A DNA stretch of 64,000 bases from Strix aluco (Eukaryota > Chordata > Aves > Strigiformes > Strigidae). The stretch covers positions 15,268,948-15,332,947 of the forward strand of contig NC_133948.1 of NCBI RefSeq assembly GCF_031877795.1. The letters run 5' to 3'. The notes under the pieces were generated by a model that worked only from the letters and a program-made list of their open reading frames with translations, was not told the origin of the DNA and did no database searches. Shown here one piece after another: positions 20,801 through 64,000 of this stretch (positions are counted from its first letter, which is position 1; every line of letters begins with the position of its first letter). The position numbers and the translations under genes were made by a program.

Positions 20801-23800
20801 AGCGCAGAGTTGTCAGGGGCGTATGGCAGAGTCCCAAGACAGCCAGTGGTGCTGGTTCTGCTGTGTGATCTGAATCCTCAGCTCAGAGGAAGGGAGACAG
20901 CAGAAGCTCCTGAAAGTAATGATTTCCCAGTAGCGCTTACACTGTCCGTTGCTAGTGACATGTTATGCTCTTGTCTGGGAAAATGTTATTTAAGCTGCTT
21001 GCAAGTCTTACGCAGCAAAGCACATACCAGAGACTGGCTGTTCCTGAGGTGGACTGCGTGGCTTTGTTTCTTACAAATCTGGGAAAGTGTTAACGAGACG
21101 TAATGAAAAAATAATCAAGAATGCCATTCACAGCTTATTAAAATAGGAGCTTTGACTTGATAAATTCAAAGATCCAAACCTGAAAGCATTTTAAAAGAGC
21201 AAAAACTGTCTTCCTTTGTTTTCCTCTAGTTGGTTATCAGCTCTGGAAAGTACCAAATGGCTGCAGCACTTATCTGTGCTTCTAAAATCTGCGCTACTCG
21301 TAGTTCACGCCGTGGACCGAGACCAGCGACCAGTCTTGGTTCACTGCTCAGACGGCTGGGACCGAACCCCCCAGATAGTGGCGCTGGCCAAACTGCTGCT
21401 AGATCCATATTACAGGACCACAGAGGTTTGTAAACCATCTGGTAGTGCATGAGGTAGTTCCTGGGCTTGGGTCCTTTTCTGAGGAAGTTTGTCTGTAAAT
21501 TATTTCAGTTTTTTCCACTAGAGAGGGCACTAAAGCTAGGAGTTTACAAACAGTAGTCTGCAGATACAGTTACATATAGGTGTAAATATAGTCTGTAATT
21601 CAAGAGCAGATTATATTTTCCCCCTTTGCTGTAACTGCACAGTCATGGTCTATGCTTCCACATATTTAGTTTAGGAATACGTAGTACAAAGTGCTACATA
21701 TTGCAGTTTCCATTACACCATTGCAGTTTCTCAGCCAACTATTGAAACAAAGCCTTTCTCTTTTCTAGATTTCCCAACTGCATGTTTTTCCAGTTTCACA
21801 TTTTCGTTGTCCTCTGTCACTTAGTTATATTTCTCCTGGTTTTTCAGCCCAATTTTTTTCCCCCCATCACTTTTCAGCGTTGTGTGATATGTGATGGCTG
21901 GATTCCATCTGCCAGCCCACATGCAAGATGCCTTTGTTGTCTCGAACAGAAGCATATGTCTGAACACTGTGCTATAAACTGCTGCTTAAAGCCTTGGATG
22001 CGTGAGGACCATAAGTTTAAACTGTAGCCAGCAATGTCTTTTGGATGAAATTGTGGAGATCTCTCAGATCCTTTTTTCACATGTATTCTAGAAGTTGGCA
22101 TCCATCAGGTCAAAATATATTGCTCTGCCCTTGGCACCGAACCTCCTCCTGGTCCGCTCTGAGAGTGCTGTCATTGCTGGTCAAAGTGCAGAGTTCTTCT
22201 GTACATGCCCTTTGCCCCCCTTCTTATCGCCACTGCATCAGAGGAAACCATAAACTGTGGCTGTTTGTACAAAGACCAGAAATGTTTAGGAAAATGAGTC
22301 TTCAGCATTGTCACATTTCAGGCTTTTCAACTATCAGCTATTATTTTTGCTCTAATTACAGCCATTGACTTATTAAGCATGGTCTACAATTTTTCTTTCT
22401 GCTAAGAATCAAAACCTTCCTAACCTGTGATGGGGTTTAGGTCCTGTAAGATGAGGTGTCGCATTCAGGTGCTCAGCTAGATACTGTTTTAAAATGTTCT
22501 TTGCCCTTTTCGTTTGCATGAGAAATCATGCAGGTCAACCCTTAATCAGTCTTGGTGGCTGTGCTGCATCTGGTGTACACACAGGCAAGCGTTCTCTCTG
22601 AGCATGGGTGTCCCGTTGTGGATGAATTGTTTTCTTTTATGACAGACAGACCTGCCCATCATTTTCAAGGGAGAGCTTTAAAATTTCCTCTCCTGTCCAA
22701 ATGTTGGTTACCATGGTCCAGATGGTTTTGATCAAGATGAAGTTCCTCCTCTCCCCTGTCTGGCCAAGATAGGTCTCATGTCAGGATCTTTCCTGCCAAT
22801 CACTGAGGACTTAACCTGCCTTATTCCCTTTCCTGTTCACGTAGGTTTGGGAATTCATATCTGTCCTGATTTCATTGTGCAGCATTTCAGAACACAGAGG
22901 CATTAGGTAAAGCAGTAAAGATAAGTAATGAGGCCAGTGCTGAAGGGAAATAGGAGTGAGTGAGGACACAGTAATAAGGTGATTCCCATGAGTCTCAGAC
23001 CGTCTTAGAAAATTGAACTCAAGAGAAATAGGAACTTTTCATTTGTACTTTCATTTCTGCAGGGTTTCCAGGTGCTAGTGGAGACGGAGTGGCTGGATTT
23101 TGGCCACAAGTTTGCAGATCGCTGTGGCCATGGTGAGAATTCGGATGACCTAAATGAGCGCTGCCCCGTGTTTTTACAGTGGCTGGACTGCGTCCATCAG
23201 CTCCAGAGGCAGTTCCCTTGCTCTTTCGAGTTTAACGAAGCATTCCTTGTGAGTTGTGGCTTGAGAGATTGCTGTTTTATAGACTGCTTCTAAACCAGTA
23301 CCCAGTACTAACATACTAGAGAGCTCCAAGGGGTTTTTGATTTTCCCATCTGTGATATGCTACAGCCTGATAACGGTAACAGGAAAACTGCCCAGATAGA
23401 GAAGACAAAAGTACTTGTATGCTTCATGGGACCCGAGTTCTGTTCACTCTTAACACAGAAGCAGGACTGTCAAGGACTTCTTTTAGACTTTTAAAGAAAC
23501 AAATAAATGATACAAATTTAATAGTCTCACCTAAGAGGTGCTGAAATAACTCTGGTATAATACATCTACATAGCATGAAAAAAATCATAATTACTGACAA
23601 TATAAACTTCCCACTACTTTGATCTTGTTTTGACTTGTAGACTCCTCTAAAAACAACCTGCCCCTTACCTTTCCATTCATTTTTGCTGTTTCTTTGCTGA
23701 AAAAGTTTGGGATATTCGAGCGGTGGTTTATTTTCTTTTGAAGTGAACAGCGCTCCTATTAGGAATTTGCCTAGGATGGTCAAAATCCGTTCTCAAGGCC

Positions 23801-43829: not shown

Positions 43830-43956
43830 TCAGAGCGGGGCGCGGCGGGCAGGGCTGCCCTCGTACGCCAGCGCGCTGTCCGTGAGCGCTGCCTCGGCCT
43901 CGTAGCTGCTGTTCTCTGACTCCGCAGCCACGGGACACAGCTCCTGGTTGCACCAC
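43830..43956 (-). CDS. AidB-type gene exon N, C-terminus and stop
   Basis: The exon encodes [20 protein letters not shown], then an acidic/serine stretch and SPARRAPL before TGA. The end is not a canonical peroxisomal PTS1 tripeptide. The acceptor is TTCTCTGTTCAG. Confidence 0.9.
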
Positions 43957-46900
43957 CTGAACAGAGAACACAAACCGTTCATCCGAGCCCCGGTAACGCA
44001 GACAGTGCTGGTTTCAACTTGAGGTCTTGCTTGGTTTGGGTCCCTCTCACCACTGCTAGAATTCAATTCCCCCTGGCAGGGAAAAGCCACGATGTTGACA
44101 GCAACCAACCCAGAGTCTGTTTGTCTCCATCAATCGTGACACGAGGTTTGGGTTTCGCCACGGCCGGGGGTCAGATCGCTCGGAGAGGCAGAGCACAGCC
44201 TGCTGCATTGCATGAGAAATCGCCTAAACCCATCAGGGCTCGAGGAGGTTCTGCTTACCTTCGAGCGGTGGCGATGTCGGTGGAGGAAGCATCAGGCCGT
44301 GCTGCGTGTTCGATTAAAAGAGCCCCTGTGGAAGAGCAGGAGACATCAGCATTCCCGGGCTCCAGCCAAAACAAGCGCTGGTGAGCGTGGGGGGTGCTGA
44401 CTCCTCCGCAGCACTCGCCAGGCTGAGCTGCCTCAGTTTGAAAGCAGGCGGGGGCTGAGCTTGGTTTAAAACTCCACCCTTTACCCAGAATCCGAGAAAC
44501 CAGACCATCCTAGGAACACCCAGCAGGCTACAGGCTTGGGGAGGAGTGGCTGGAGAGCTGCCAGTCAGAGAGGGACCTGGGGGTGTTGATTGACAGCTGG
44601 CTGAACAGGAGCCAGCAGTGTGCCCAGGTGGCCAAGAAGGCCAATGGCATCCTGGCTTGTATCAGCACTAGCGTGGCCAGCAGGGACAGGGAAGGGATCT
44701 GACCCCTGTACTCGGCACTGGTGAGGCCGCCCCTCGATGAGTGGGTTCAGTTTTGGGCCCCTCACTCCAAAAAGGCCATTGAATGACTCGAGCGTGTCCA
44801 GAGAAGGGCAACGGAGCTGGTGCAGGGTCTGGAGCACAGGTCTGATGGGGAGCGGCTGAGGGAACTGGGGGGGTTTAGTGTGGAGAAGAGGAGGCTGAGG
44901 GGAGACCTCATGGCCCTCTACAACTCCCTGAAAGGAGGGTGCAGAGAGGGGGGATGAGCCTCTTGAGCCAAGGAACCAGCGCCAGGCCAAGAGGGAATGG
45001 CCTCAAGCTGCGCCAGGGCAGGGTCAGACTGGCTCTTAGGAAGGATTTCTTTGCAGAAGGGGTTGTTGGGCGTTGGAATGGGCTGCCCAGGGCAGGGGGG
45101 GAGTCCCCATCCCTGGAGGGGTTGAAGAGTCGGGTTGACCCAGCGCTGAGGGATCTGGTGGAGTTGGGAACGGTCAGTGCTGGGTTAACGGTTGGACTAG
45201 ATGATCTTCAAGGTCCTTTCCAACCGACATGATTCTGTGATTCCTAGCCCTCTCCTGGCCTGAAATCCATCATTTTTGTCTTCCCCACTACCTGTGTAGA
45301 TCCTCGCCAGGGTGTAGGAGAAGTCTCTTGCTGCTAGCTCCATGGTTGCTGCCCCCTTGGAACCAGCTGCCTGCACGAACCGCACGAGGCTGCTGAGGGC
45401 GTCCCGCGTTTGCTTCACGGCGGGTTCCAGCTTCGCAGTGCTCGAAGCCAACTCCAGTTTTTTCTGCAAAGAAAACAATCGCAGGAAAAATGACAGCGTA
45501 TTTACCTTCTGCAAGGAAACGGGGCTGGTGAAATCCTGAGCACACCCAGCAACCGCTAACAAAAAGCTTAAATCAAGGTGTCTGTAACTGGCGCTGCCGT
45601 AGGGGGAGCGGCCAGAGCACGGCAGCAGGAAAGGGGACGTTGCCAAAAGGAAGCTCACAGCCTTGGAGCATTCCTGGGAGCCAGACCCAGCACGGGGCTG
45701 TTTCCTTGCTGGCTTTAGAGCCGCACACGGGGACCAGATCGCATCCCCAATTCTCTCCGATCACATACCTGTATCAGGTTCTAATTACACGCTATCTCCC
45801 CCATTTTTATATTTTCATTTCTGGGAAGATGCTGGGGCTGTGTCCAGGCAGGAAAATGCAGATTTAAAGAAGCTTTTCTCCTCAAGTTGTGCCAGTGGGA
45901 AAGGCCCAGGACCAGAGTGGCTCTTCTGATGGATGTCAGGCCTTTAACTGTGCCTAAAAGCACCACCCAAAAGCTCCCCTGGTTGAGCTAAGCTGCTGTT
46001 TCTCCAGTGTCCCAAATATCTTGTGAAAGCACAAGTGATGCTCTGCCGAGAGAATCTAAACCAGCTGCTCTTTTGACATGGCTGCCTTTAATCTGCATTT
46101 CCCATGTCGTTCCCTCTTAGGCAGGATCAAACGGGAACATTGGGCAACGGAGCTGGTGCAGGGTCTGGAGCACATGTCGTATGAGGAGCGGCTGAGGGAA
46201 CTGGGGGGGTTTAGTCTGGAGAAGAGGAGGCTGAGGGGAGACCTCATGGCCCTCTACAACTCCCTGAAAGGAGGGTGCAGAGAGGGGGGATGAGCCTCTT
46301 GAGCCAAGGAACCAGCGCCAGGACAAGAGGGAATGGCCTCAAGCTGCGCCAGGGCAGGGTCAGACTGGCTCTTAGGAAGGATTTCTTTGCAGAAGGGGCT
46401 GTTGGGCGTTGGAATGGGCTGCCCAGGGCAGGGGGGGAGTCCCCATCCCTGGAGGGGTTGAAGAGTCGGGTTGACCCAGCGCTGAGGGATCTGGTGGAGT
46501 TGGGAACGGTCAATGTTAGGTCAGTGGTTGGACTGGAGGATCTTCAAGGTCTTTTCCAACCTAGACGATTCTGTGATTCTCTGATTCTGGGAAGAGTGTG
46601 CCTTCTGCATAGAGCTGCCAGGCTGGGGGCACAGCTCGGTCCCCCCGAAGTCACACGTGTGGAGGCAGCTCTCACCCTCGCGGCCACCCCCGACCTCCAG
46701 GCCCTGCGTCCCCCCGCGGCGCTGGCAGCTGAGCTCTGCTGCCGCCGACCCCAGCCCTGCCTGCGCTGCCTGCGGTCGGGGCAGGCCCTGCCTTCCCTGG
46801 GGGCTCAGCCCGGGACCTCGGGTGCTGCACTAACAACGCTCACACCCGTCTCTGCAGCAGAACCCAAGGATTACCTTGGACAGAACCGCAAAAAGGAACC

Positions 46901-49900
46901 GTTGAATATTTAAGTGGTGGAGCAGGTGGTAGGAGGTGCTTTTCATTAATTAGCCTCATTTGCAGGTTATTTAGGAAGCTGAAGTCTGTAAGTATCTGCT
47001 GCGCAGGACAAATTTTTTATGTTTTTGAGGCTTTCAGTGCTTAAGTGCTCAAGCAGCTCCTCTTGGTAGTATGTGAAAATGCAGCTTATTTGCACAGTAG
47101 GACTCCAGACTGCACAAGCCGAACCCAGTTTTGTTTTCGGCAGTATGTCTGTGCCTGACAACCTTCTGCATAACCATTGCCCTGTATTTTCTGACTATTA
47201 ATACAAGAAAAACACAATCCTCAATGGATGCTATTCTGTGCTCTAGGCAAAGCAGTACATAAATACTGACAGCATATGCTGTACAAATACAAAAACACCA
47301 TCGTTAAAGCGGTTAGGTCTAGTGCCAAGATAAAGTCCAAAGAACCCTCCAAGCCCACAGAATGCTAATAAGAGGTTTTAAAAGTAGCTTGGAGCTTGTT
47401 GCTAACGAGGATCAAAGACCCCAAAGGCATAAACATATTCCCAGCAGCTTGGGTGGAAGCCAGATCACACAGGCCAAGCGCAGAGACAACATTCGCGCTT
47501 CTGTCAGCACCCTCGTGCTCGTGGCTGGGGTACGAACAGCTCCGTCCCACGCTGCCTTGCTTTTTAAGGTTTAAAGACCTTTTAGTATGGACCAGGAATA
47601 TAAAAGCATCATTTTAACCTTTGGGGGAAAAAAAAAAAAAGATATTGCATTCTCTTTGCTCTCCAGTAATTTACTTTTTTTTTTTTTTTCCAGATTACAC
47701 TCATTCTTTTTCTAACCAAAAGCACTGAATCTGCTGAGAGATCAAGCTGGTTTTTTCCACATCCTCCCCTGCATTTGAGAGCGAGAGGCTGTAGAGCTGC
47801 TTCAGGGACGATGCTTGAGGCAGAAGCAGCTCCTGTTTTCTCTCCTGCGTGTTGATCTGCTCCAGTTCCTGTAGCGTGTAACCGCAGGGGCACACGCACG
47901 CGGCATCGCTGTGCCAGCGGTACAGCCCTTTTCTGGCTGAAATCATTGGAGAGCAAAAGAGCTTTTAGAGCTCCAATATTTCTGATTCCTTCGGTTTTTA
48001 CTGAGGAATTTCAAGATGCCACTCATTCGTTTGCTCTCACTAGCTACCAAGAGTGCCAGAATGGTTTTTACTTAAAAGATTAATCATGAGTATTTAAAAG
48101 TACAGCAACGGGGAGAGTTTCCAAAACAGGGCTGGAAGCACAAGGCTCGTATTAATGCTTCAAGCAAATATGTAGTCTCACTTTAATAACCTACTTTTAT
48201 TTCCTGCTGTGTTAAAATTGTGGTTATGGTCTGAAAAGGACTTGAAAACACTATCACGTGTCTTAGATTGTATGTCTGATCTACAGCGAGAGTTTCAGCC
48301 CTGCGCAGTCATTCCTGATGCCCAGGACAGTGGATTCTGACCTCTGCAAGGTGCGTGCAGGACTGGCGCTCAGAAACACAACGTGCCCAGATTTAACCTA
48401 AAGCCACTAAAATGCAATAATCAAATAATTCCCTGGTGGTATTTTAGAGTCACTTTGCAGATTGTAATTGAATTCTAAAGTACACCCAATGCTCTGGCTC
48501 AAAATTCCAGCAGTAATTTTTTAGCCGTAACATGAAGTAACCACCCCCGTGCAGTTGCCACCCGAACAGCCAGCGGCTGAGCTGGAATCCAGGGCTGTCT
48601 CTCACACTTGCCACGTGTTCCCCTGAGACTTTGCACACTAATTACCTCTGGACAGGCTGTTTGTAACAAACTTGCCTGTGTATCAAGGACGCTAAAAATT
48701 CAGCTTCTCATAATCACATTGTGCAAGGATGAGGAAGTTCTCTGTATTTCCCTTTTCCTGAGGATAATTACAACATTGGGTTCCTGCTTCTAGATCACAG
48801 CAGCCCCAGCGTTGGGCATCCCACCATCTGCAGAGGCAACTGACACTGGATAAAAGCAAAAATAGGTTGCAGTGGGGTCAGGGGGGAGGTTACTCTGTTC
48901 TCTGTTCAGAGAACAAAGTGTTATGCTGTGCTAACAAAGTAGTCACTGGGCACAAATCCTGCAAACTGAGAACCTTGGTGGGCAAACATAAAATCAATTG
49001 TACTAGTTTTGTGTGCATCAATAAAAAGGAAATGTATCAGAGCAGTAAAAATCCCTTTATGAAGGGCTAAATGATTTCCTCACTAGATGGGAATGGGAAG
49101 GATGTTTCAAAACGAGCCAGACTCTCAGAGACTGAAGGAATTTAGACACCTGGAGCTCCAAAAGAGGTTATCACCTGCGAGTGAAACCCTGATGCTGGTG
49201 TAGAAACTCGGCACGTTCCTGCCTGATGCTGCAGAGGCACTCTGCAGAAATACCTCCCAGTCTGCCTTCCCAGCGCCCGGCTGCCGACGGCGTAAGGGAG
49301 AAGCTTTGTGATGTGTCCAGGTTGAATTTGCCGGGTGTGATCTATCACACCCGGAATCAGTGCCCCAGCGCTGCCCTCCCGGCTCAGCCTGGTCCAGGCA
49401 CTCGCTGTGCAAATGGAGGAGGCCCCAGTGTGACAGAAAGCAGCAAATGCAACGGCGCTTACTGGAATTTATTTTAAGGTCAGTGCTCGCTTGTTCGCCC
49501 TCCAGTCTCATCTACAGCATGATTTGTGGGAGTGCAAGAGCAATGATGGGCTTGTTAATTAATAAATCTCAATACTCGGTGTCACTGCTGTGCAGGTACC
49601 TGCTCTGAATCGCATCGCTGTGTTCTTTAATGCTTCTCTGATTATGCAGTTGCTGGGGGGGCCCTCTCAGCTACACCAGTGAGGAGCTCTGGGGACTGCA
49701 GCACGGCCCCTGTGTGGGGTGTTCCTTTAAATTACCCTAAGTGTAAGTAAGTCTCTGGAGGCCAGCTTCTTTCCCAGTTATTTTTAGAGCCTACCACTGG
49801 CTCCTTTCCTTCTCCACTCCATTACCTTCCGTGGCAGACTAAGCTGCTTTTTATCAACAGCTGGCCCAGCTGGCTTTTTAATTAGCAGGTGTGCTCAGTC

Positions 49901-52900
49901 CTGCTTATGAGCAGATTTGGGTTTCTTGTTTAGTAGTCAAATTGTTTCAGGTATTTTTCCTTTATCCAAAGTTGTCTGAGAGGATGGCAAGAAGACATGT
50001 CTGGAGGTCGGAGAGGTGCTCTGTACAGAATACAGCTGAGCTGGGGGGTTGTGATGTAACAGAAGCTGCCCAGTGGCAGCCACTGGTGAGAAGGAGTCAG
50101 GCTCTTGCTGGTGTGTTTTTGAAAGACCCATCCAGGTGCCAGTGCTGCAGGGAGTGCGGTGAGCCAGACCTCTCCCTCCTCGTGGCATCTGGATGAGACA
50201 GCTACACACAGTCGCATCCAGTACTCCAGGATTCCCTCACTGTATCTGGGCTAACGTAATCTGGATTGCTCTGCCTGGATTAATAATGTCACCTCTGAAA
50301 GAACACCCTCCGATAGGCTGGTCAGGCTGCTTCTGGTCTCCCTTTATGGGATGTATCAAGCCAGCTGATGCTCGTTTACCTTCAGGAAATTCTGAGCTGC
50401 TTTGACCTCTCCGTGACTGCCTGTCATCTAAGCACCTTTAACAGAGCAGCCTGTAGGTAAAGCCAGAGAAGGGCAAATCTAAAGAGGCAGCAATGGAATT
50501 CCTTTGGCTCTTTCCATCTTCTCAGTGGGAATAAAAATAGAAAGTCATAATGCAGTAGGAAGCCCTAGTGAAGGTTTAATATTCAGCAGTCTTGTGGTGT
50601 TTTTCCAGTTAAGAAACAAAACCACAAAATTATTTTGGATTCAGGAAGGTGACTCTTTCACGTTAAAAATACACTTCTATTGGTGCCTGTCATGAGGAAC
50701 TCTGACAATGCAAAACTCTTCACTGCTGAGATGAAAGTATCTGCATTTTTTGTAGCACACAAGGATCCCAAAATGAGCACTGTTTGCGTTCTGCTTTTGT
50801 AAGTGCTATTTAAAGAGCAGAATTATAAGACACCTTCTGAATACCTGTCTAAAGCTTTCAGTTGTTCATATTCCCTGCCAGTCCCAGCCAGGAGCACGAA
50901 CACCAAACCCGACTCTGCCAAGGTGGGAAAAATCAGGCTGACCTGTGCTTTTGGGGTGGGCTCACCTGCACTGTGGAGAAGAACACAGCCATCGCCTGTC
51001 CTTGACTCTTGGTGAGGGATCTCAGGACATCAAGTGACAGGATATTTGTTGTTCCCTCCCATATGGACAGCACCTGTGGGGTAGAAGAGACTGGGGAAGA
51101 GCATGAAGAGCCTTTTGGAGGGACTGCAATAAAGAAAGGGGAACGTGAGGGAACAAAGACATGGGGCAGAGCTAAGGGACATCAAGGAAATCTCCAGAGA
51201 TGACTTCCACAAGTGGAAAGGAGCAGTGGTGATGAGAGCATGGAGCCCAGCACCATTACTGAGCTAGGAAACAACCCCAGCACAGGAACGAATCACATCC
51301 CCTCCCTGGTGAGGAGGGGGCTCGGCAGGAAGGCAACTAGGAAAGAGCTGCCACGCCTGGAGTGAGTCTGGGGAGGACCGTGTTTTCTCTTGAGCGTGTT
51401 TTCAGCAAGCAGCCACAGAGTGCTGTGCCAGGGACAAGGTGACACACAGGAGCTGCTTCTGCTTCTCCTGCTGCCTTCTTACCAGAGTGTCACGGACTAT
51501 GACCGGCAAGCCTGTGTCCTCCATGTAGCCTTGTCCTCCAAAACTCTCCATTGCCTCAACAACAACAGCAGAAGCCTGCAAAATGCAGAGAGCTGACACG
51601 ATCCACATTGCACGAGGGGAAGGAGCAGCCAGAGACTTCCAACATCACACAGCGGTTCCTGCTGGGATGGGACGGATCCAGATCCCTGAGGCAGGTTGCT
51701 CATCATATGCAGGAGGAGGAGCCTGGGGAATGAAGGCTGAGTAACACTGAGAGAGGACCTGCAGGAGCAGTCAGACCTTGGGAGAAGATCCAGGGAGAGT
51801 CTGTCTCAGTACAGTCCTCTCTAGGTAAGGATAAAACTCTGGTTTGTTTGGTACATGGGAGTATGTGTCTCTAGTCCAGGAGAGTCTTTACCTTCTGCTT
51901 GCTTATGGTTTGTCAACTTCTGTGTATTTAAGCAATTAGAAGAGGGACAGACCCCTGAAGTCAAGGCTAAGCCACTAACACCTTCTCTTCTACGTATTCA
52001 TAACTAGGGGAATGATATTCCCTGTGGCTCAGTGCCTGACCTTGGTCTTGGGGCAGCCCGAGCAGCATTTCTCTGTGGCCCGTGGAGTACTTCACAGACA
52101 GTGCTGGCTCCATCTGTTCTGATCAGATGGCTGATCTGTGGCCTTGAGAGCAAAGGGACAAGTCTCCTACCCACAAAGTCCAGCCTCGGTGCAGAGCAAT
52201 AATCGCTGCAGGCCCTGCGGGTAGAGGTCACTGCCAGTACCCCCTGCTATCGCTGCCCTCCACGTTGGCCGTGTCCACCACTCCTCTTTCCAGCTCTGTG
52301 GTTGCTGATGTGCCACACAGCCCCACTCTGGGCTAATCAAACTGCCTGTTCCATACCTGCTTCCCAGTGTACAGTTTGGCGACTGGTGTCAGCAGTCTCA
52401 AGAGAAGCTGGTCTTGCTCACTCGCCATGTTGGCCTCTACAAGTCCAAGCAGACGAACGATCTCCATAATCAGAAGAAAGGCCCCTCGCGTCTGCACCTG
52501 CAAACAGAGGAGTGGGGAGCTTCACTGGCAAGGATCTTTGACTCAGGCTGGTTCCAGCCTGGTCTGCTGAAGTGCCGTGAGACTGTCTCAAAGGGATGTG
52601 CAATACTTGGACCCGGGCAAAATGCCACCCCTGCCTGTACAGACCCACAGCTTCAGAGACAAAGACCACTGACCAGCCAAGGCACAAAGCATGAAATATT
52701 AAAGGTAGTCTGGAGCTGCCGCTCTTGGACACTGCAATTTAGCATGAGGAAAGGGGCAATGCCATTTCATCAGGCCTCCTTGGAGCCTTATCAAAGCTCC
52801 TATCAGGCATCCAGGTCACAAATCCACAGCCTTTCCATGGGTAAGGGACACGAGACCACACATCTGATGGCCAACCTCTGAGCACCAGGATCTGCAAGGT

Positions 52901-55900
52901 CTTTGACAGATTTCTTGCTGAGCAACTTATTTCCCTGGCAAGTTGTGATTTGGAAAGCATTGGGATATGGAGCTCTGCAGCCCCTGTGCTGTGGGACCGT
53001 ATAGGATCTGGCCTTTCTTTCAGAGTTGGGGTTCTGGCCACAGGCTAAGAGACGCTGGAGCTTTAAGTTATGTTTGACAGATGTTCACCACTTTCCCTCT
53101 CCCCCACCTTGCAAGAGGATTTTTAAATACTGTTTTAAAAATTTGCATGAACCTACTGCAGCCCAAGGGCAAGCTCTGATGTTACACCACTTAAAAGAAG
53201 TAGTGCCCGGATGGGTGAGAGGAGAACTGTGTGTCACTGGTTTGAAGTTTTAGTAGGGGTGGGAAGCCACCCGTGTCCTGTGGATTTAGTGAGCTGCTAC
53301 AGCTCAGCGTTGTGGCAAAGCCGTGAGACATTCTGCCAGGAGCGAAGACCCACGTGTGAAATTCCTCCCAAAGCCCAGAGCCAGAGTGCCAGTTCACGCT
53401 GCTCTCTCCTCCATTGCCTGTTACTGCCTTAGATGACATTCACATCTAGAGGCTGTACTCAAGCTCAGCACCTTGTGGTGATGAGCACTGTGCAGGTACA
53501 CAGTGAAGACAAACTTCTCAGAAGCTGAAGTGCATGGTGACTACTCAGGAACTCTTCAAGCCTGCTGGGAACAGCCCATCTCCTGGTGCATGAACTACCA
53601 GGGAAGTTGGATGAGTCTCTGCCAGTCTTGGACAAAAGTCTGTTAACTGCAGTTTAGGAGACTGGTGTCATGCTGGGACTCTGATACTAACAACCAACTT
53701 CAGAGGTCATGGCATATCATAGCAGGTGTGTGCATGAACTCTGGCACTCCTCTCAGGACAGCTCCCAGGTAACTGTTGTTTAGGATAACCTAGCAGAGAA
53801 GCTAGGTCTATCGTCAGATCAAATCCCACTAGAATAAGGCAACTGCCCTGCAGCATATGTCTCACTGTAGCAGGAACAGCCTTCTCCATCTAACTGTTGC
53901 ACACAGGCTGGCTGTGCTCATTAGCAGCTGAGGATCTCTGCCCTCTTTCCTCCCCAACAGGTTCAACTGGGCTCCCAAAAGTCTCACCTCCATCCGGGCC
54001 ATTGTCTGCATGTGTAGGGGATGGTCCTTGAGGAGCTTCCCAAAGGCAACCCGCCTACGGGCATATTCCCTGCTCAGACTGATCATCCTAGAGAGAATAC
54101 AGCCAGGGAAAGAAGTCAGACCAGCAACCTCCCACTTCTGAGCTCTCCCTCCCAGCCACCCCCACTGGAAGAGCCCTGCTCAGCTGTACCACACCAGCCT
54201 AGGTCCCCCCTCCACAGGCCAACCCTCTCCAGCACTGCTGGCCTCCAGACCCGTGCCTGCAAAGGCATTAAATGTCAGCTGGCTGCAAAGCTGAGCATTG
54301 CAAAGTCCCCTTGACCCGATAAGCTCCTCCTTCAGCTCTGGGGGGATCCGTGCTGCCTTCACCTTCTCATGTAAGCTACTGCACCAATGGCATTGTGGAT
54401 CCGAGTTATGTTCAGCATGTTGGAGATGGAGGCCACGCCGTGACCCTCTGCAGAGATCTGAAAGCATCAAAGAACAAAGGCTGACGTGAGCCTTTCGCAC
54501 AGCCCTGAAGTGTACGCGTATCTAAGTGAAAGTTGTGTCAACAGACAGATATAGGCTGTCCACTCCGTCTCTGTCTGTCCTCAGGCATCACAAAGATCAT
54601 TTCAGCCAAGTCTGTGGCATGACCATGTCAGCACGATCAGTTCTGGTCCCTGTTGCTTGTTCCCACCTGCACGCTACACAGAACTGTCTCTCAGCTGGGT
54701 CAATGCAACTGGATTAGGGAAATGACCAGCCTAAAATTACTTTTCTTTTTTTCTTCCCTCCTGTCTTTTCCTGAGCTGTTCTCAGCTCTGTCCCACACAC
54801 AGCCCCACTGGTGAAGCGTTCTGCGAAGTGAACAGCCAGACACCGAGGAGGAAGAGAGGAACTTTTCCAGCTGGTATCACTGCCAAAACCCCCACGAGTG
54901 CCAGGCCAGCCCAGTCCCAAGCGGAAGGTGAAACCTTTGCGTACCAGCTCTGCTTTAGCTCCATCTAGCCACAGCTCTGCTGTTGCCATCTGCCGCGTGC
55001 CCAACTTGTCTTTCAGCCTTTGCACTTGGATGCCGTTCAGCTTCCCCTCCTCATCTCGAACCCTCAGGAAGAACAGGGACAGGCCGCTGGAACCCTGGGG
55101 CCATTGAAAGGCGTGCAAAGAGAATTTCATTACAATGAAACAAGGAAGAAAAAGAACGCCCCTGCTCCTTCCCCTGGTTCTACCATCAAACAGACCTGCT
55201 TTACTTCTCCTTCAGCATCCACTACCCTGGCCAGGGTTAACGCCACATCAGAATCAGCAGCTGATGTAAACCATTTAAAACCATAGAGACGGTATGTACC
55301 GTCTGGCTGCCTTCTGGCCACTGTCTCGGTGCCATTCGCTGCAAGAAAGGAGAAGATCATCTTGGCTTTACAGGAACTTCTGTATGCTGATTTTCAGTTT
55401 AAGCAAAAGCTCTTTCAAGTCACCTCTTGCTATCAAGATGGAGTATGGATTAGCTGCTAATCTCTTGCATTGACCCTGGATAAGAAATGCAGCCAGAGTT
55501 AAGCCCTAGAAAGGAAATATGCTCTGTTTAACTGTGAGCCTTTCCAGCAATTGCTCCAGACTAACAGCTGGTAATAGCAGTGCTTTGTAAGGAGCATGCA
55601 CCGCAGTGTGGAATCCAACACCTCCATTTCTTCAGGAGCTACCATGACCAAGAACAACAAAAGGTGCTACAGAATCCTGCAGTGATGCACATCTTTCACT
55701 CCACAGCTCACCCTTTCACTTCTTCCACCAGGAAACAAACTGCAGCTTCATCAGATGCAGGTGACTCCCCTTCCACCTTTCTGTCTCCACAGTGGAGTTC
55801 TGAGGTTTCCTGGCCCATCACGCTATTACTAACCAAGGAATAGAAGTTGAAGGCCAAGAATGCTTTCTGGGTCCCAGTTGGGATGGGTCTGACTGTCTTG

Positions 55901-58900
55901 CTCAAGGTTTAGAATATAGAGCTAGGCATCAGTGTGTTATCTGTGCAAGGAACACAGCTCTGTACCTGCCTGTGTGTACTGCGTGCATCAGTGGACAGAA
56001 GTTGGGACTTTTGTTGGCTAAAAAGCAGAGCTATGCAGAGGATTTGGATGATTCCCGTGAAAGTCTCCTACAGAATCACAGAATCATCTAGGTTGGAAGG
56101 GACCTTGAAGATCATCCAGTCCAACCATTAACCTAGCACTGACAGATCCCAACTCCACCAGATCCCTCAACGCTGGGTCAACCTGTCTCTTGAACACCTC
56201 CAGGGATGGGGACTCCCCCCCTGCCCTGGGCAGCCCATTCCAACACCTGACTACCCGTTCTGTAAAGAAATACTTCCTAATATCTAGTCTAATAAAAAAA
56301 CAGCTACCTGGCATTGTAAGTTCCCCACAGCCTTCATTTTCTCAGTTCTCACCAACACATGTAGCTGCTGCTGCTGCAGTTGCTTCCCACCTCAGAGCAC
56401 GTACCAACATCAGAGCCTCCCCTGCGCTCAGTCATCCACTGGCCAGAGGTCCAGAATTTCTTGGGGTCACGGGAGGTCAGGTGGTCAAAAGCGTTTTTCA
56501 GAGATCCAGGAATACCTAGTGACTATTTTGGGGGAGGGAAAGAAACTAAGATGATCATAACACAGCAGATGAAATTACACAGTTGCCTTAACTACCACTG
56601 GTGTGTCCCAGGCTTGGAACAGACGGTCCCCAAGCAGGCAAGGGGGCACTGCGTGTCCTGCACCACCGTGCATCCGCAGGGACTGTCGAGAGTTCCTGAA
56701 CCTGCCCAGCTCCTGCGTGGCTGCTGGAGCACCGTGCAGACAGAAGGTGCAGACTTGTGCTGCAAAGGAGAGCCCTGAGCATCCCTACACCCCTCGGATT
56801 TCTGCCCCGCTAGACATCTGGACAGAGAGCTTTCAAAACAGTACACGTGCCAGGGTATTGGCTTACGTTCATATTTCTTTTTATTGAATTATAATGGCTG
56901 GGGTAACTACTTAAGAACTAGCTTTTCTCTGCATCTTACATAGTGCACTACTGGCATAGTGCAAAGGGTGTCACTAAGATGCAGAGCCAAATCTTCAAAC
57001 TGGGGAAATTCTTGCTAGTTTGTTTAATTTACATCAGGTATGGATCTGGCCCAATACATTTAACTGCCACTCCACACAAGGAACAGCACAACAAACTATC
57101 TTGTAGTAAAAACATATGGGACAGCTTTCCAACTACCTGCAGCGCCACAGGTTTTATGTGCACCAAAGGCCTTATTGTACACGGTGTTGTAAGTGAACAT
57201 AAAAGCTAGCCTGGCACAAAGACTTTGTGACTAAAGGAGAAAGGCAGTGGGAGCCGGAGCTGAGTCACAGAGCAAGGAAGGCCGTGCCCAGAGCCAGATG
57301 GCAGATGAGCTCTCCTCCATCCTTGGCCAGTGCTCCAGCCCCTACCCAGCGCTGCCAGGACGTGGGCTGTGCCCTCAGAGACCAGCTGAGCTCATACCTC
57401 AATGACTTTGGCTGCCCCATCAGTCATGGCCAGTGGACAGCTGAAACCTCCAGATAAGCTTGAAAATAAGTACACTTTGACAGCCTGATGTAGACGGCTA
57501 GAAAAGAGAGTGAGTGAAAACAGACAGGTTATGCAGCAGTTCAACAGCAGGAGGGAACGAGGAAGAGAGGAACAAAATACAGCCAAACCAGGTGAGAATG
57601 AGACCACTCATTTCTGAGAGGGCAAAAAACTGTTTCAGTCAGGAAGAGAGAAGAGGAACAGCAGAGTTTCTCAGTCCCAGAGGGATTGTCAGTGCAAGGC
57701 TGGATGGAAGGCATTGCCTGCCAGCTGGTGCACATTAAATGCAGTTTTTAGAAATAAGAAATATGGGTCTATCTCCAGAGGCTGGATGCAATGAAACTGT
57801 AAGTAGAATCCCAGACCTTTAGCTGTGTTAATGCATGTAAAGCTGGAGCAGTGCAGGGAACTGCCAGGCCCCAGAATCAGGAAGGTGACATCAAAGAATA
57901 TTATGATCAACTGTAGGCCATTAGTCACGGCTTATCATTGCCGGAGTGGAACATTACAGTGGACAGACACTGCTGTTCAGTACAGCGGTAGGTGTGCTTT
58001 TGTCCATGCATCATCTGTTACCCATTATACAACAACAGTCCTACCCTGCTAAGAATAGCCAGCAAGGCACCAAGTCACTCCCATTGTCCCCCAGTTACCT
58101 CCAGTTGGAGTATCTTCTCTCATAGGCCTCGGCAATCAGCCCCTCTTCTGCTGCAATCTCCTTCATCCTCCTCCAGGCCGAGCAGGTGACGATGTGATCC
58201 ACCCGCCGCCCCCAGGCATCATACTGCCGAAACACAGGGGGGTTCAACTCGCATTCCCATCCTAGAGGTTTGATCGTGGTTAGCAGACGGTTTCCAAATC
58301 TCTCCAGATCCTGATTCACCTCCTCCAGTACCTGTGAAGCAACAAGAGCAGCCCTTCAGCACGCCCCTGGAAGGCAAGGCGCCTCGGTCCTCGTTGGAAA
58401 GGCAGAGGACTGACCGTATTGTCCTGCAGTGCTAGTGGTCTCTTGCCACTTGGCCCTTCCATGCGTTCTGTAATGCAAGCAGGACAGCTCGTCTCTTAGC
58501 CTCTGCTGGCACAGCTGTGCTCAGCTGTCACTTTTTTTTTTTTTTCCCAAAAAATCATTTTTTCAAGTTACTTTTGGCAGCATCTCTGGATTGTACGAAA
58601 GACAGGAGAGGTTTTGTATCAGGGCTGAGAATGACACAGATGCACATGAGCAGGAGGGCTGGACAAGACGATCTCCAGAGGTCCTTCCAACCTCAGTCGC
58701 TCTGTGATTTACTGCTGGAGAAGAATGCCAGGGGAAGAGCTGCCAAAAATGGAAAGCCTTCATCTGTATAGGAAAACTTCCACTGGGCTCAGTAGTTACC
58801 TGCCTATCAGGTTAGAAAAGGAGGGACAGAGCAATCATTTGAGCTCCAGCCTGGCACCCAGGGTGTCCAGATTCAAATTTCCACCCTGCATCCAGCTTCC

Positions 58901-61900
58901 TGAACGGCCCTGGGTAAGGATTCAATCTCGATTCAGCCAGGCTCGGCTGACTTGGACGGAGTAGTCTGTCCATGGTTGAAGGAGGAAAACCAGCACCCAC
59001 CGAGGAGTGATTCATTCCAACCCTCTTAGACACCTATTTCAAGGTGACAGGAACCGCCTTCTGCAAGTGCTCTTCACTGTCTGTGGCCAAAGCCTAGTGA
59101 AGTTGCCCTGACTTACATAACCTGACTTGTAGATAATTAAAATGAGGCCAGGTGGACTCAACCTCTAGCAGTGTTGGATCCTCATTACCATAAATACATC
59201 CAATACTGTATTGGGGGTCAGAGAGGCACCTGATCTAGATTTGCTTTCATCAGAGGAGTATTTTTTGCTGTTCTCTGCCCCTCAGGAGATGCTCGTTTCC
59301 TCCTCAATACAGCAATTGTGGAGGTGAGCACTGTACTTGCTGTACCCAAAATGGTGCAATTATAAAACACATTAATTTGCTGTTTATAACAAACACTGCT
59401 TTTTCCTTTCCCTGCCTCCCCCTGTATTGGCTTTTCATTAAGATTCTTTCATCCCTGTGCCGTTCAGCGTGTGTAATGGGGATCCAACACACACCTTCCA
59501 GTTCCTACTCTGGAAGTCTCCATCCTCAGACCAGCCAGTTTTCCTTCAGGTGAACAGTGAAATAGTGTTTAAAATCACAAAAGAAGGCAAAACCATTCAT
59601 GAGAGCCCCATCAACTGGTACAGGTCCCACTGCACTCCTGTTTGCTCTCAGGAGAGCTCAGCTGGGATGGATGTACGCCTCCAGTGCTTATCATATCTTG
59701 ACAACAATTTGAAGGTTGTTTTAGAGGCATAACCTAAGAATCCAAGGTTCATGGCCTTTGCTGATCCCTGAAGCACAAGAACCTTTGAGCTGTTTACCTG
59801 GTGGGTTTTTGTGGGCAGAAGAATGAGTCTACCAAATAGGTGTTCTGGTCAGCACACTACAGGGAACTCAAACTACAACAGTCCCTTTACCTCATCCACA
59901 GTTTCTAAAAAAATCCCTGACTGCCTAGCTGTGAGCTCATGCCCTGACCACACGCAGCCTTACAAACCACCGTGTTACCCAAGTGAATGTGTTTATTTTC
60001 ATGGCAAAAGAACAAAATCAGAGCTCTTACATTTGTGACTGCTGAATGCAGCCTGGGTGCACCAGAAAAACGTACACCAGGATATGGAGAGGGCACCTGT
60101 AAACCATCAGGGTCAGGGCTGAAGCTGCTACCTCACAGCATCTGCTGGGCGGGCTCATTCACCCTAATCTGTCCTTTGATGTCCCAGGGATTAATACATT
60201 GGAAATGTGCAAATTATTGCACATTAAGAGTGCAAACAGATGATCCTTTATATTAAAGGACATATTTTCAGGGGGATCAAAGACCAACAGATACCTCTCC
60301 ACAACAGTGCTCAGAAAAAGCAGGTGCTTTCCTCTGTGTTCTCCAGAAATCGGCTTCAAAGAAAGAAAGAAATCTTTTGCTCCGTTCCAGGAAAATGAGT
60401 CTGTCCACCGCTGAGCACAGGTGAATAGTACAACAGGAATCAACCTCCAGCGTGGTGTCTGCTCCAGTGGGACACACAAAGCTTCCTCCTGCTCTCCTGG
60501 AGAGGTGTTCGTAGGGAGAGCTAGCTCTCAGGCTGCAGCCAAGCGGGTGCTGCGTGAAGCAGCCAGCAGACTGGGCTCTCCTCTTCAGCGGCGAGGCAAC
60601 ACTGCCCCGCTGGGACCAAGCACAGAAACGTAAGGGAGATGCTGCTGATGCTCTGGTAGATTTTGCAGCTGCTTTGTCTCTTTGGGGAAGGAGTGGAGAG
60701 CAGCTCTCAGCTTTGGCAAAAGACATCACTGATCCTTTTAAGTCCTCAGGAGATCTGAACCTACTTCCAAAGGTGCAGATGAGGAGCAAGATTTTTATGC
60801 TTGCCCAAAGGCATCCACCCTTTCCCCCATCTTCTCTTCTGGCGAGAAGGCCACGCTGCTGCTTAGGGAGGCCTCATTCCCATCTTTCACAGAATCACAG
60901 AATCATTCAGGTTGGAAAAGCCCCTCGGGATCATCGAGTCCAACCCTCAGCCCGACTCTACAAAGTTCTCCCCTACCCCACATCCCCCCACAGCTCATCC
61001 AAACGACCCTTAAACACACCCAGGGATGGGGACTCCACCCCCTCCCTGGGCAGCCTATTCCACTCTCTGACCACTCTTTCTGGGAAAAGTTTTTTCCTCA
61101 TGTCCAGTCTGAACCTCCCCTGTTGCAGTTTAAAGCCGTTCCCTCTTGTTCTGTCACTAATCACCTGTGAGAAGAGACCAGCACCAACCTCTCCACAACG
61201 TCCTTTCAGGGAGCTGTAGAGAGTGATGAGGTCTCCCCTCCCCTTCTCCTCCTCACACTGAACAGTCCCAGCTCCTTCAATGGCTCCTCACAGGATTTAT
61301 TCTCCAGGCCCTTCCCCAGCTCGTTGCCCTCCTCTGCCCTCGCTCCAGCACCTCGAGATCTCTCTCGTATTGAGGTGCCCAAAACTGGACACAACCCTCC
61401 AGGTGTGGCCTCACCAGTGCAGAGCACAGGGGGACTATCCCCTCCCTCCTTCTGCTGGTCACACTATTTCTAATCCAAGCCAGGATGCCGTTGGCTTTCT
61501 TGGCCACCTGGGCACACTGCTGGCTCATGTTCAGCTGCTTGTCAGTTAGAACCCCCAGACCCTTCTCTTCCAGACAGCTCCAGCCACACCTCCCCAAGCC
61601 TGTTGCCATGCAGGGAGTTGTTGTGGCCCAAGTGCAGGACCTGACACTTGGCCTTGTTGAAGCTCATCCCGCTAACGTTGGCCACTGATCCAATCTATCC
61701 AAGTCTCTCTGTAGAGCCTCCCTGTCCTCATGCAGATCGACACTCCCGCTTACCTTGGTGTCATCTGCAAACTTACTGATGATACACTCTATGTCCTTAT
61801 CAAGATCATCAATAAAGATGCTGAACAGAAATGGTCCCAACACCGAGCCCTGAGGAACACCACTTGTGACCGGCCGCCAGCTGGATTGAGCTCCACTGAC

Positions 61901-64000
61901 CACCACTCTCTGGGTCCGTCCATCCAGCCAGTGCTTGACCCGGCAGACCGTTCGCTCACCCAGGCCATGGGCAGCCAGTTTTTCTATGAGAATTCTATGG
62001 GGAACTGGGTCGAATGCTTTTTGAAAATCCAGGTAGATAATATCCACAGCTTTTCCCTCATCCAATAGTCAGGTCATCTTGTCATAGAAGGAGATTAGGT
62101 TTGTCAGGCAGGTCCTGCCTTTCATAAACCCATGCTGACTAGGCCTGATCCCCTGGTTGTCCATTATATGACTTTTAATGGCACTAGAGATGACCTGCTC
62201 CATGACCTTTCCTGGCACCGAGGTCACACTGACAGCTCTATAGTTTCCTGGATCCTCCTTTCTGCCTCTCTTGTAGATGGGTGTCACATTTGCCACCCTC
62301 CAGTCCAATGGGACCTCCCCAGTTGGCCATGACTTCAGGTAAATCATGGAAAGCAGCTTGGGGAGCACATCTGCCAACTCAGCACCCTTGGGTGTAACCC
62401 ATCCGGTCCCACAGACTTGTGAGCATCCAAGTGGTGCAGCAGGTCTCTGACCACGTTCTCTTTAATTGTGCTGACCTCATTCTGCTTCCCCTCCCCATCT
62501 CCCAGCTCATGAGGCTGGGTGTCCAGGGAACAGCCAGTTCCACTGCTAAAGACTGAGGCAAAGTAGGCGTTGAGCACCTCAGCCTTTTCCTCATCCTTAG
62601 TTACCATGTTTCCCTCTGCATCCAGTAAAGGAGGGAGATTTTCCCTAATCCTCCTTTTGTTGTTAATGAATTTATAGAAACATTTTTTATTATCTTTAAC
62701 AGCTGTAGCCAGGTTGACCTCTAGCTGCGCTTTGGCTCTCCTAATGTTCTCCCTGCATAGCTTCACTACATCTTTATAGTCTTCATGAGAGACCTGCCCC
62801 CTCTTCCACAGGTCATAGGTTCTCCTTTTGTTCTTGAGATCCCTGTTTAGCCAGGCAGGTCTCCTTCCCCACCTGCTTGTTTTTTGGCACGCGGGAACAG
62901 CCTGCTCCTGTGCCTTCAAGACTTTTCTCTTGAAGTATGTCCAGTCTTCCTGGACTCCCATATCCTTCAAGGCAGCCTCCCAAGGGATTTTGTTAATCAA
63001 TCTTTCATGATGGCTGTGCCAAAAGCAAGCTCCCAGTGCTGCCACCACACTCTTGCAAGGCCTCACAGACCTGGAGAGCAAGCAGTGGCAGGAAGAGAAT
63101 CTCTGAACACCAGATTCTGCCCCTTTATTCACTAGGTGTCATTGCATTGCTTCTGCTGGAATAAATCACGGAGAGAGGTCACGCTCTGCTCCATGAGATA
63201 TGGTCCTTGAAAAGTGGGAAACAGTTGCAGTCCTTGGGGTGACAGCAGAGGACAGCCAGAGAGACGAGCTGCCTCCTCCCAGGGGTTCCTGTAGGACTGG
63301 ACCTCACAAAACGGAGACCCACAGCTCGGGGTCTTACCCCACCTCTCTGCACCCCTGCAACCTGTACAAAGCCTTCCGTGTCTGAAAAACAACCCAGAAA
63401 AGCCAACAACCTTTGCTAAGAACAAGCAAACCCCAACGGGCCTTTGCATCCTCTTGAGCACTCAGCTAAGAACAGCCTTGTTCCTTCTGAGAGGAACCTC
63501 CTTAAAAAGCCCCTCTTCCCTGGGGGCAGAGAAGCAGAAGAGCACAGCAGAGTTTGAAGCACCTTAGTTTTTTCCCTTTCTCTGAAATTTCTTTCTCTGG
63601 ATGACCAGACAACAAATGCCCGCACTGACAATCCCAAAACAACACTCTTGTTGCAACACCCAGACCAGTCACAGGAGATCACTAAGCCACTTCTATTTCT
63701 GTTTACATCCTGGTAATATTTTTCACCCCTGCACTGATTCAAAACTAACAGGTTTTAAAGAATGCTGATAAATTCCCCCCAGTTAAATGCTCGAAGAGAC
63801 AAAAAGGCTCAGAGAAATGTTCAATTCACAGTCTTAAACAGTGACCTAGCCAGAACCATAGTGAGTACACACAGAAACACAAACATGCACGCCAGACCTT
63901 GGGAGGAAGGTGTGTCTTCAAGTAACTCTGAAGCAACGCATCTTCCAAATACTGGTTCCCAGTCTCGGGCTGCTCTTGGAAGAGGGTCTCCGTTTCTCTC
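43830..64000 (-). CDS. AidB-type acyl-CoA dehydrogenase (14 exons, first exon cut by the window edge)
   Basis: A flavoprotein of the acyl-CoA dehydrogenase superfamily, closest to the bacterial AidB branch. The family transfers electrons from a fatty acyl-CoA alpha-beta bond to FAD; the substrate here is unknown. Fourteen exons join in frame to give 582 visible residues. Visible numbering: N-terminal [15 protein letters not shown] at about 12-26, RYDAxGRR-like QYDAWGRR about 62-69, [10 protein letters not shown] about 131-140, [10 protein letters not shown] 175-184 (FAD/substrate loop), WFTSAADSD 207-215, LKDKLGTR about 260, RRRVAFGK 324-331, [14 protein letters not shown] about 401-414, [15 protein letters not shown] about 429-443 with the probable catalytic glutamate at 431. 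E. coli AidB has the equivalent MTEKQGGSDV, LKDKLGNR, FVAEAMEVLGGIGYCE and SIWEGSGNI blocks. The basic C-terminal DNA-binding part of AidB is not evident: the tail is acidic then SPARRAPL. Not ACAD10 or ACAD11, whose motifs differ. Start codon, targeting signal and promoter are off the window. Confidence 0.9.
44259..44325 (-). CDS. AidB-type gene exon M
   Basis: A 67-base exon encoding [20 protein letters not shown] and then AR. It is flanked by the acceptor CTTCCACAG and donor GTAAGC, and joins exons L and N in frame. Confidence 0.9.
44513..45243 (+). mobile_element. CR1 LINE fragment, 3' end (about 730 bp)
   Basis: The + strand reads broken pieces of the CR1 ORF2 C-terminus ([20 protein letters not shown], then [20 protein letters not shown]) and ends with the CR1 3' terminal signature GATTCTGTGATTC. 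It is 5'-truncated, as is usual for CR1, and antisense to the host gene. In-frame stops make it non-autonomous. Confidence 0.95.
45292..45463 (-). CDS. AidB-type gene exon L
   Basis: The exon encodes [20 protein letters not shown] and ends with [14 protein letters not shown]. It continues the helix of exon K across a 5.5 kb intron. The ARDF-Y-LARIY pattern is typical of eukaryotic AidB-like proteins. The acceptor is TTCTTTGCAG and the donor GTAGTG. Confidence 0.93.
46141..46588 (+). mobile_element. CR1 LINE fragment, 3' end (about 450 bp)
   Basis: It begins at GGGCAACGGAGCTGGTGCAG and runs to GATTCTGTGATTCTCTGATT. It repeats the 3' half of the copy at 44.5-45.2 kb with only scattered differences, so both belong to the same subfamily. 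Confidence 0.95.
47701..47938 (-). other. Unassigned exon-like open frame inside intron K-L
   Basis: On the - strand a good acceptor (pyrimidine-rich tract ending GATTTCAG) is followed by an open frame that reads [20 protein letters not shown], then [20 protein letters not shown], and stops with TGA. It is cysteine-bearing, then charged and leucine-rich. I recognise no family. It could be an alternative last exon of the AidB-type gene, an exon of a nested gene, or chance. Confidence 0.35.
48896..48915. repeat. Perfect inverted repeat, 9-base arms
   Basis: TGTTCTCTG and CAGAGAACA are separated by TT. The ends read TGTTCT and AGAACA, steroid-receptor half-sites in everted order. Function is unsupported. 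Confidence 0.7.
49331..49354. repeat. Perfect inverted repeat, 11-base arms, 2-base loop
   Basis: CCGGGTGTGAT and ATCACACCCGG flank CT. It could extrude as a hairpin. It is intronic, with no flanking repeat signature. Confidence 0.8.
50966..51073 (-). CDS. AidB-type gene exon K, catalytic glutamate
   Basis: Exactly 36 codons in phase 0. The exon encodes [20 protein letters not shown] and then [16 protein letters not shown]. The glutamate of IWEGT (codon 51058-51056) aligns with the active-site base of the AidB/isovaleryl-CoA group and is retained. The donor is GTGAGC. Confidence 0.96.
51483..51575 (-). CDS. AidB-type gene exon J
   Basis: Exactly 31 codons in phase 0. The exon encodes [20 protein letters not shown] and then [11 protein letters not shown]. 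The FGGxGYxED motif is characteristic of the superfamily. The donor is GTAAGA. Confidence 0.96.
52357..52497 (-). CDS. AidB-type gene exon I
   Basis: Exactly 47 codons in phase 0. The exon encodes [20 protein letters not shown] and then [17 protein letters not shown]. AidB has ARLFTPAAKF at the same place. The acceptor is CTGTTTGCAG and the donor GTATGG. Confidence 0.94.
53988..54087 (-). CDS. AidB-type gene exon H
   Basis: The exon encodes [20 protein letters not shown] and then [14 protein letters not shown]-x-x-FG is the conserved FAD and dimer contact of the family. The acceptor is TTCTCTCTAG and the donor GTGAGA. Confidence 0.95.
54363..54457 (-). CDS. AidB-type gene exon G
   Basis: The exon encodes [20 protein letters not shown] and then [12 protein letters not shown]. 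The E-G-G-M-T-R pattern starts the C-terminal helical domain. The donor is GTGAAG. Confidence 0.93.
54945..55094 (-). CDS. AidB-type gene exon F
   Basis: Exactly 50 codons in phase 0. The exon encodes [20 protein letters not shown] and then [20 protein letters not shown]. The block LKDKLGTR corresponds to LKDKLGNR in E. coli AidB. The donor is GTACGC. Confidence 0.94.
55196..55338 (-). CDS. AidB-type gene exon E
   Basis: The exon encodes [20 protein letters not shown] and then [12 protein letters not shown]. The K-W-F-T-S strand contacts the flavin in this family. The acceptor is CTTTCTTGCAG and the donor GTCTGT. Confidence 0.95.
55339..56404 (-). other. Intron D-E of the AidB-type gene
   Basis: Ordinary sequence except for the CR1 3' end at 56071-56292. 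Confidence 0.75.
56071..56292 (-). mobile_element. CR1 LINE fragment, 3' end (about 220 bp)
   Basis: The + strand starts with CAGAATCACAGAATCATCTA, the reverse complement of the CR1 terminus, and reads into the CR1 ORF2 tail on the - strand ([20 protein letters not shown]). It lies in the same orientation as the host gene. Confidence 0.95.
56405..56522 (-). CDS. AidB-type gene exon D, flavin loop
   Basis: The exon encodes [20 protein letters not shown] followed by GGSDV. The MTE-GGSD motif is a hallmark of acyl-CoA dehydrogenases. The acceptor is CAAAATAG, and a second AG seven bases on could be an alternative but would break the frame. Confidence 0.93.
56523..58098 (-). other. Introns C-D and B-C of the AidB-type gene
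   Basis: Introns 56523-57397 and 57498-58098. No named repeat or extra exon is seen. Confidence 0.65.
57398..57497 (-). CDS. AidB-type gene exon C
   Basis: The exon encodes [20 protein letters not shown] and then [12 protein letters not shown]. In AidB the corresponding segment reads CPITMTFAA. The acceptor is CTTTTCTAG and the donor GTATGA; it ends in phase 0. Confidence 0.93.
58099..58331 (-). CDS. AidB-type gene exon B
   Basis: The exon encodes [20 protein letters not shown] and includes [20 protein letters not shown], then [15 protein letters not shown]. This matches the AidB block NPPELLRYDAQGRR. The acceptor is TTCACAG and the donor GTAACT. Confidence 0.92.
58650..58711 (+). mobile_element. 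Short degraded CR1 3' relic
   Basis: The string GGGCTGGACAAGACGATCTC, then CAGAGGTCCTTCCAACCTCA and CTCTGTGATT, is the CR1 3' tail (normally TTGGACTAGATGATCT...CCTTCCAACC...TTCTGTGATT) with many substitutions. An older insertion than the others. Confidence 0.8.
60888..63030 (-). mobile_element. CR1 LINE, 5'-truncated, with decayed ORF2 reverse transcriptase
   Basis: It begins on the + strand with CACAGAATCACAGAATCATT, the CR1 3' end in reverse. On the - strand it encodes the pre-RT region ([27 protein letters not shown]), the RT core ([23 protein letters not shown], and FADD codons at 61771-61760) and the C-terminal part. The endonuclease domain is missing. The left boundary is inferred from loss of CR1 similarity at about 63030. 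Confidence 0.93.
61664..63030 (-). pseudogene. CR1 ORF2 reverse-transcriptase remnant
   Basis: The frame is broken twice: a small indel near 62378 after the HPRV motif, and a TGA at 62069-62071 where the open frame would otherwise continue into [20 protein letters not shown]. The TGA fits a CpG-transition of an arginine codon. The catalytic FADD is present, but the protein could not be made intact. Confidence 0.88.
63898..64000 (-). CDS. AidB-type gene exon A (partial, N-terminal)
   Basis: Reading leftward from the window edge it encodes [20 protein letters not shown] and then [11 protein letters not shown]. The pattern F-E-P-x-GNQY-D-LL-YL is the usual start of eukaryotic AidB-like proteins. 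The donor is GTCTGG, phase 0. The true start lies beyond 64000. Confidence 0.8.

Follow-up and report, generated by a model that had tools for sequence, protein, structure and literature searches.

The acyl-CoA dehydrogenase ACDH-11 of the worm Caenorhabditis elegans clears cyclopropyl acyl chains and is called a dedicated beta-oxidation enzyme in PMC10876521. The crystal of a bacterial relative, Bd2924 of Bdellovibrio bacteriovorus, contains C10-coenzyme A (C10-CoA) and flavin adenine dinucleotide (FAD) (PMC6851490). The present analysis concerns a related gene of the bird Strix aluco, located in a stretch of 64,000 nucleotides (here the window; C18:15268948-15332947 of the searched genome, 1.41 Gb in 202 contigs). 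On sequence comparison, its identification as an orthologue of C. elegans acdh-11, in the ACDH-11/Bd2924 branch that neighbours AidB, is well supported.

The gene is real and intact. Its 14 coding exons lie on the minus strand and join, with AG/GT borders, into one frame of 1947 nt (648 amino acids, aa) that has no internal stop, as the preliminary description of this DNA had announced for an intact AidB-related gene of 14 exons. The stop codon TGA ends at 43830, the first coordinate given in the preliminary description, whereas the ATG, at window-based position 64197, lies 197 bases past the window edge and is visible solely in the flanking genome sequence, exon 1 spanning the edge. The introns measure 101-5566 bases, and the exons are as follows.

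63898..64000 in the window (whole exon 64197-63898), minus strand: coding exon 1, aa 1-100; hmmsearch expect value (E) 2.5e-12
58099..58331, minus strand: exon 2, aa 101-177; frame and splice borders
57398..57497, minus strand: exon 3, aa 178-211; frame and splice borders
56405..56522, minus strand: exon 4, aa 212-250; holds the clade-specific Gln239
55196..55338, minus strand: exon 5, aa 251-298; weak donor GTCTGT
54945..55094, minus strand: exon 6, aa 299-348; tblastn and gene model
54363..54457, minus strand: exon 7, aa 349-379; tblastn and gene model
53988..54087, minus strand: exon 8, aa 380-413; RRRVAFGK
52357..52497, minus strand: exon 9, aa 414-460; frame and splice borders
51483..51575, minus strand: exon 10, aa 461-491; FGGQGYMED
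50966..51073, minus strand: exon 11, aa 492-527; IWEGTTN with Glu497 at the catalytic position
45292..45463, minus strand: exon 12, aa 528-584; inside PF22217 (aa 517-638); E 4.7e-11
44259..44325, minus strand: exon 13, aa 585-606; E 3.5 alone; phase and splice fit, joined tail in PF22217, aligned to ACDH-11
43830..43956, minus strand: exon 14 with stop TGA, aa 607-648; E 1 alone; phase and splice fit, PF22217 to aa 638

Many of the central exons were marked by tblastn with E. coli AidB, and ten of them (58331 to 50966) share a single frame with AG/GT borders. The motifs of the acyl-CoA dehydrogenase superfamily, including the IWEGT claimed at the outset, were located in the minus-strand frames. 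Exons 1 and 12 were recognised by hmmsearch with N- and C-terminal profiles built from the reading frames of the best 80 loci among at least 532 prokaryotic relatives; by title, 15 of these 80 loci are from Legionella or Fluoribacter, and two belong to archaeal assemblies (L011 and L061). Exons 13 and 14, weak by hmmsearch when taken alone, entered the model on the strength of their phase and splice sites, which fit, and of the joined tail, whose match to PF22217 covers all 122 positions. The statement that the 14 exons have GT-AG sites holds for borders and phases, with the qualification that exon 1 is partly outside the window and that the donors of exon 1 (GTCTGG) and exon 5, although GT, are weak.

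These two donors, together with repeats within the introns, are what a decaying or untranscribed gene might display. However, the frame is intact across the 14 exons, clear expression is reported for the likely chicken copy LOC417013 (PMC12754495), and 95 of the 98 near-invariant family columns (80 prokaryotes, the worm and Bd2924) are kept, so that decay or silence is very improbable; the same conserved columns make a chance origin implausible. Bacterial contamination was rejected on account of the 14 exons, the size of the introns and the 17 Mb contig.

The similarity scores place the protein beside ACDH-11. Among PDB matches of the whole protein, ACDH-11 reaches 569 bits, Bd2924 440, 5ez3 209 and E. 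coli AidB 204, and the remaining ten chains among the matches listed have at most 97 bits. Its Pfam domains are AidB_N, the middle and C-terminal ACAD domains, and ACDH-11_C (PF22217), the last with 166.1 bits over its full length. AidB_N gives 55.4 bits, versus 187 bits in E. coli AidB, and PF22217 was not reported at E 0.001 in E. coli AidB or in an ACAD11-like control. Identity is 56% to ACDH-11, 41-52% to the 80 prokaryotic orthologues and 31% to E. coli AidB. The nearest relatives appear to be ACDH-11 and Bd2924 rather than AidB. The label "AidB-type" holds loosely, and "ACDH-11-type" appears more precise in view of the bit scores, of PF22217 and of the tree described below.

The superfamily domains are also those of the ordinary beta-oxidation enzymes, and the chicken gene is induced with beta-oxidation genes on fasting (PMC12754495); a mislabelled paralogue of the ACAD10/11 or IVD kind could account for both. 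Such a paralogue is extremely improbable. When the 427-residue core was compared with vertebrate ACADs (best 60 of 77 PDB chains), ACAD9 scored 63, VLCAD 57, MCAD about 48 and IVD 47 bits, far lower than ACDH-11. Membership in IVD was rejected on the last of these values, scored against solved IVD chains, a SCAD-type bacterial control reaching 284. The ACAD11-like control has Acyl-CoA_dh_N as its N-terminal domain, whereas the bird protein has AidB_N; the latter also carries IWEGTTN and not DGPDEVH, which we take to be the ACAD11 motif and which was found in the solved ACAD11 chain. With these two differences, membership in ACAD11 was rejected by an approximately unbiased (AU) test on 28 tree rows (p 0.03 for the bird with the ACAD11 pair), in line with the tree check that the preliminary description had proposed. 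The trees contain no ACAD10 or IVD rows.

The relation to AidB is the closer question. A tree of 58 rows was built with 41 of the 80 prokaryotic loci, picked for variety; the other 39, as well as L104, L105, L113 and L115-L117, were left out, and the 28-row set is a further cut. The outgroup contains long branches, according to a warning of the tree tool. In the 58-row tree, the bird protein and ACDH-11 group together at 99/99 (a single worm row, aligned part), the ACDH-11-type group without AidB is supported at 98/94, and the AidB pair and the ACAD11 pair are recovered at 100/100 each. Joining the bird with two Gemmatimonadota rows was rejected in the 28-row set (AU p 0.008). A true AidB orthologue, i.e., a flavoprotein with a role in DNA binding or the alkylation response, would be consistent with the AidB_N domain, with the AidB-like name of the chicken gene, and with the AU test, which rejects the join of bird and AidB neither with 58 rows (p 0.104, though 21.5 log units worse) nor with 28 rows, where the bird with two AidB rows is 0.6 log units better (p 0.498). 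On the other side stand the lower identity to AidB than to ACDH-11 or the prokaryotic orthologues, the failure to find PF22217 in AidB, and the 98/94 support just given, and this alternative is improbable.

Since the nearest relatives appear to be ACDH-11 and Bd2924, and not AidB, a class of substrate can be proposed. Glu497 of the bird protein corresponds to the catalytic Glu429 of Bd2924 and is Glu in 80/80 prokaryotic orthologues. The position of Gln239, within GQWMTE, is Gln in the same 80/80, in the worm and in the bird, whereas it is Met in AidB. We consider it probable that the gene encodes an FAD-type ACDH-11 orthologue that most likely binds or oxidises medium-chain acyl-CoAs, perhaps those with cyclopropyl chains; the substrate is suggested by the orthology, the conserved active site and the fasting co-induction of the chicken gene. 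The bird protein would bind FAD, and an N-terminal addition may direct it to mitochondria. It would most likely bind medium-chain acyl-CoAs of about C10-C12 and oxidise or hold those that ordinary enzymes handle poorly, for example beta-cyclopropyl chains from bacterial lipids. By clearing them, the enzyme would spare the nuclear receptors that sense fatty acids from activation by these acyl-CoAs, an effect reported in the worm.

Whether the protein turns its ligand over can be weighed from Bd2924. In that enzyme the catalytic Glu429 is bonded to Asn171, and the authors suggest that this hydrogen bond may account for the missing activity (PMC6851490); the letters of chain 6sd8 have Gln at number 171, versus the Asn171 of the paper. 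As no activity was observed for Bd2924, possibly owing to this hydrogen bond, members of the clade may be binders and not oxidising enzymes. The bird protein might be a sequestering protein without turnover, which holds medium-chain acyl-CoAs and damps receptors of the PPAR/HNF4 type, the model first proposed for worm ACDH-11 (PMC4741542). The Glu-bonding position, Gln239 in the bird, is Gln in all clade rows examined, which speaks for this model. However, the later worm paper describes a beta-oxidation enzyme (PMC10876521), and pure binding does not demand the catalytic Glu that all 80 prokaryotic orthologues keep; sequestration alone is rather unlikely.

Several points weigh against the proposed ACDH-11-type function or its basis, in addition to the two AidB joins left standing by the AU test. 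Assigning the worm substrate to the bird protein means extrapolating at 56% identity, activity of Bd2924 was not observed (PMC6851490), and the targeting signal is weak, with five Lys/Arg and one Asp/Glu in the first 45 residues. The tie between LOC417013 and the locus is one of name, together with the failure to find a second copy, and not one of sequence. Four exon matches of the genome-wide protein search run over stops, the matches extending beyond exon borders, and the short exons of this gene were missing from the 12 matches that a genome search with PF00441 gave at E 0.001. Surveys of cyclopropane fatty acids in meat are of no help, since the levels do not follow the presence or absence of the gene: chicken, turkey and goose had none above the detection limit, yet neither had pork, horse, lamb and rabbit, and eel and mullet contained them.

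The chicken gene LOC417013 has an AidB-like name in one paper, and its number appears in two further RNA-seq papers. In fasted chicken liver it rose from 29.3 to 62.0 (2.23-fold, p 0.0026), according to a table that also lists CPT1A, ACOX1, ACAA1 and EHHADH (PMC12754495). It is named as one of the genes whose function in muscle development has seldom been reported (PMC8461557), and in embryo liver it was lowered under formaldehyde, which is neutral on the proposed role. A trout transcript, labelled ACDH-11 by its authors, differed 5.3-fold between groups (PMC3841051), and for this reason the gene may not be limited to birds. Searches of the open-licence literature found no link of a vertebrate gene to ACDH-11 function. 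The bird gene is already recorded through its chicken counterpart, which databases list, and its function is, as far as found, unstudied.

As to its absence from humans, the 2024 worm paper of Fox et al. states that ACDH-11 lacks human conservation (PMC10876521). Elsewhere the human counterpart has been named VLCAD or ACADM (PMC4741542; PMC5358523), which is consistent with humans having no true orthologue. The words "acyl" and "dehydrogenase" were not found in the main text of a gene-loss paper (PMC1382263). The earlier proposal of a gene kept in birds and missing from the human set is in accord with the worm report on its human side.

Taken further, it is possible, although the idea is tentative, that vertebrates inherited an ACDH-11 enzyme for bacterial cyclopropyl or otherwise beta-blocked medium-chain acyl-CoAs, that birds kept it between MTMR3 and HORMAD2 in the fasting-induced fat-oxidation programme of the liver, and that the lineage of human and rat lost it. 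If true, this loss would account for the persistence of cyclopropyl lipids in mammals, and that reported in rats would become a testable question of gene loss. A bird orthologue would also make ACDH-11 an older animal gene, and vertebrate models for the disposal of cyclopropyl lipids would follow, i.e., chicken and possibly trout. The locus suggests, more generally, that the full vertebrate list of acyl-CoA dehydrogenases exceeds the human one.

The gene order around the locus is MTMR3 (plus), the acyl-CoA dehydrogenase gene (minus) and HORMAD2 (plus), the names of both neighbours being assigned by position. Two exons, probably both of the first neighbour, were found in the window, and two HORMA matches, on the plus strand of the same contig, start at window-based positions 68590 and 77939.

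21195..21449, plus strand: myotubularin phosphatase exon, open frame (MTMR3 by position); PF06602, 98 bits
32121..32327, plus strand: FYVE-domain exon, open frame, probably of the same gene; PF01363, 29 bits

The myotubularin and FYVE gene is thus tail-to-tail with the acyl-CoA dehydrogenase gene, as had been claimed, and the HORMA-domain gene is head-to-head with it. The name MTMR3 fits alongside a HORMA-domain gene: human MTMR3 and HORMAD2 are presumably adjacent, and the order MTMR3-HORMAD2 would be common to bird and human, with the acyl-CoA dehydrogenase gene between them in the bird. Upstream of the ATG, between it and the HORMA-domain gene, a stretch rich in GC and CpG (window-based 65000-66000; CpG observed/expected up to 0.81) is possibly a shared two-way promoter.

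Within the gene, two copies of a 300-base repeat, 98% identical and 1336 bases apart, flank exon 12 (44806-45105 and 46142-46441). They are presumably CR1-like, and recombination between them could delete the exon. Intron 1 holds, at about 60900-62200, a degraded remnant of a non-LTR (long terminal repeat) retrotransposon, CR1-like by eye. A protein search of the genome with exons 2-11, in which only the best candidates were scored, found no second copy of the gene: ten of its 11 matches fall on exons of the gene described here, and the eleventh (E 0.2) was rejected because it overlaps another acyl-CoA dehydrogenase match of the PF00441 search.

Compared with the described systems, the bird protein is closest to C. 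elegans ACDH-11 (PDB 4y9j/4y9l), its sister in the tree, with which it has in common the ACDH-11 C-terminal domain, the catalytic Glu and the GQWMTE motif, the 56% identity extending over 411 aligned columns; it begins about 55 residues before the crystallised worm chain. Bd2924 (6sd8/6sda) belongs to the same clade, with 50% identity over 408 columns and the active-site Trp-Glu, but its C-terminal part is shorter (a chain of 505 aa). E. coli AidB (3djl) resembles the bird protein in AidB_N and the core ACAD domains, and differs from it in the 31% identity, in PF22217, which was not found there, and in the Met at the position of Gln239. Within birds, the most likely counterpart is chicken LOC417013, matched by name and by the single copy detected here.

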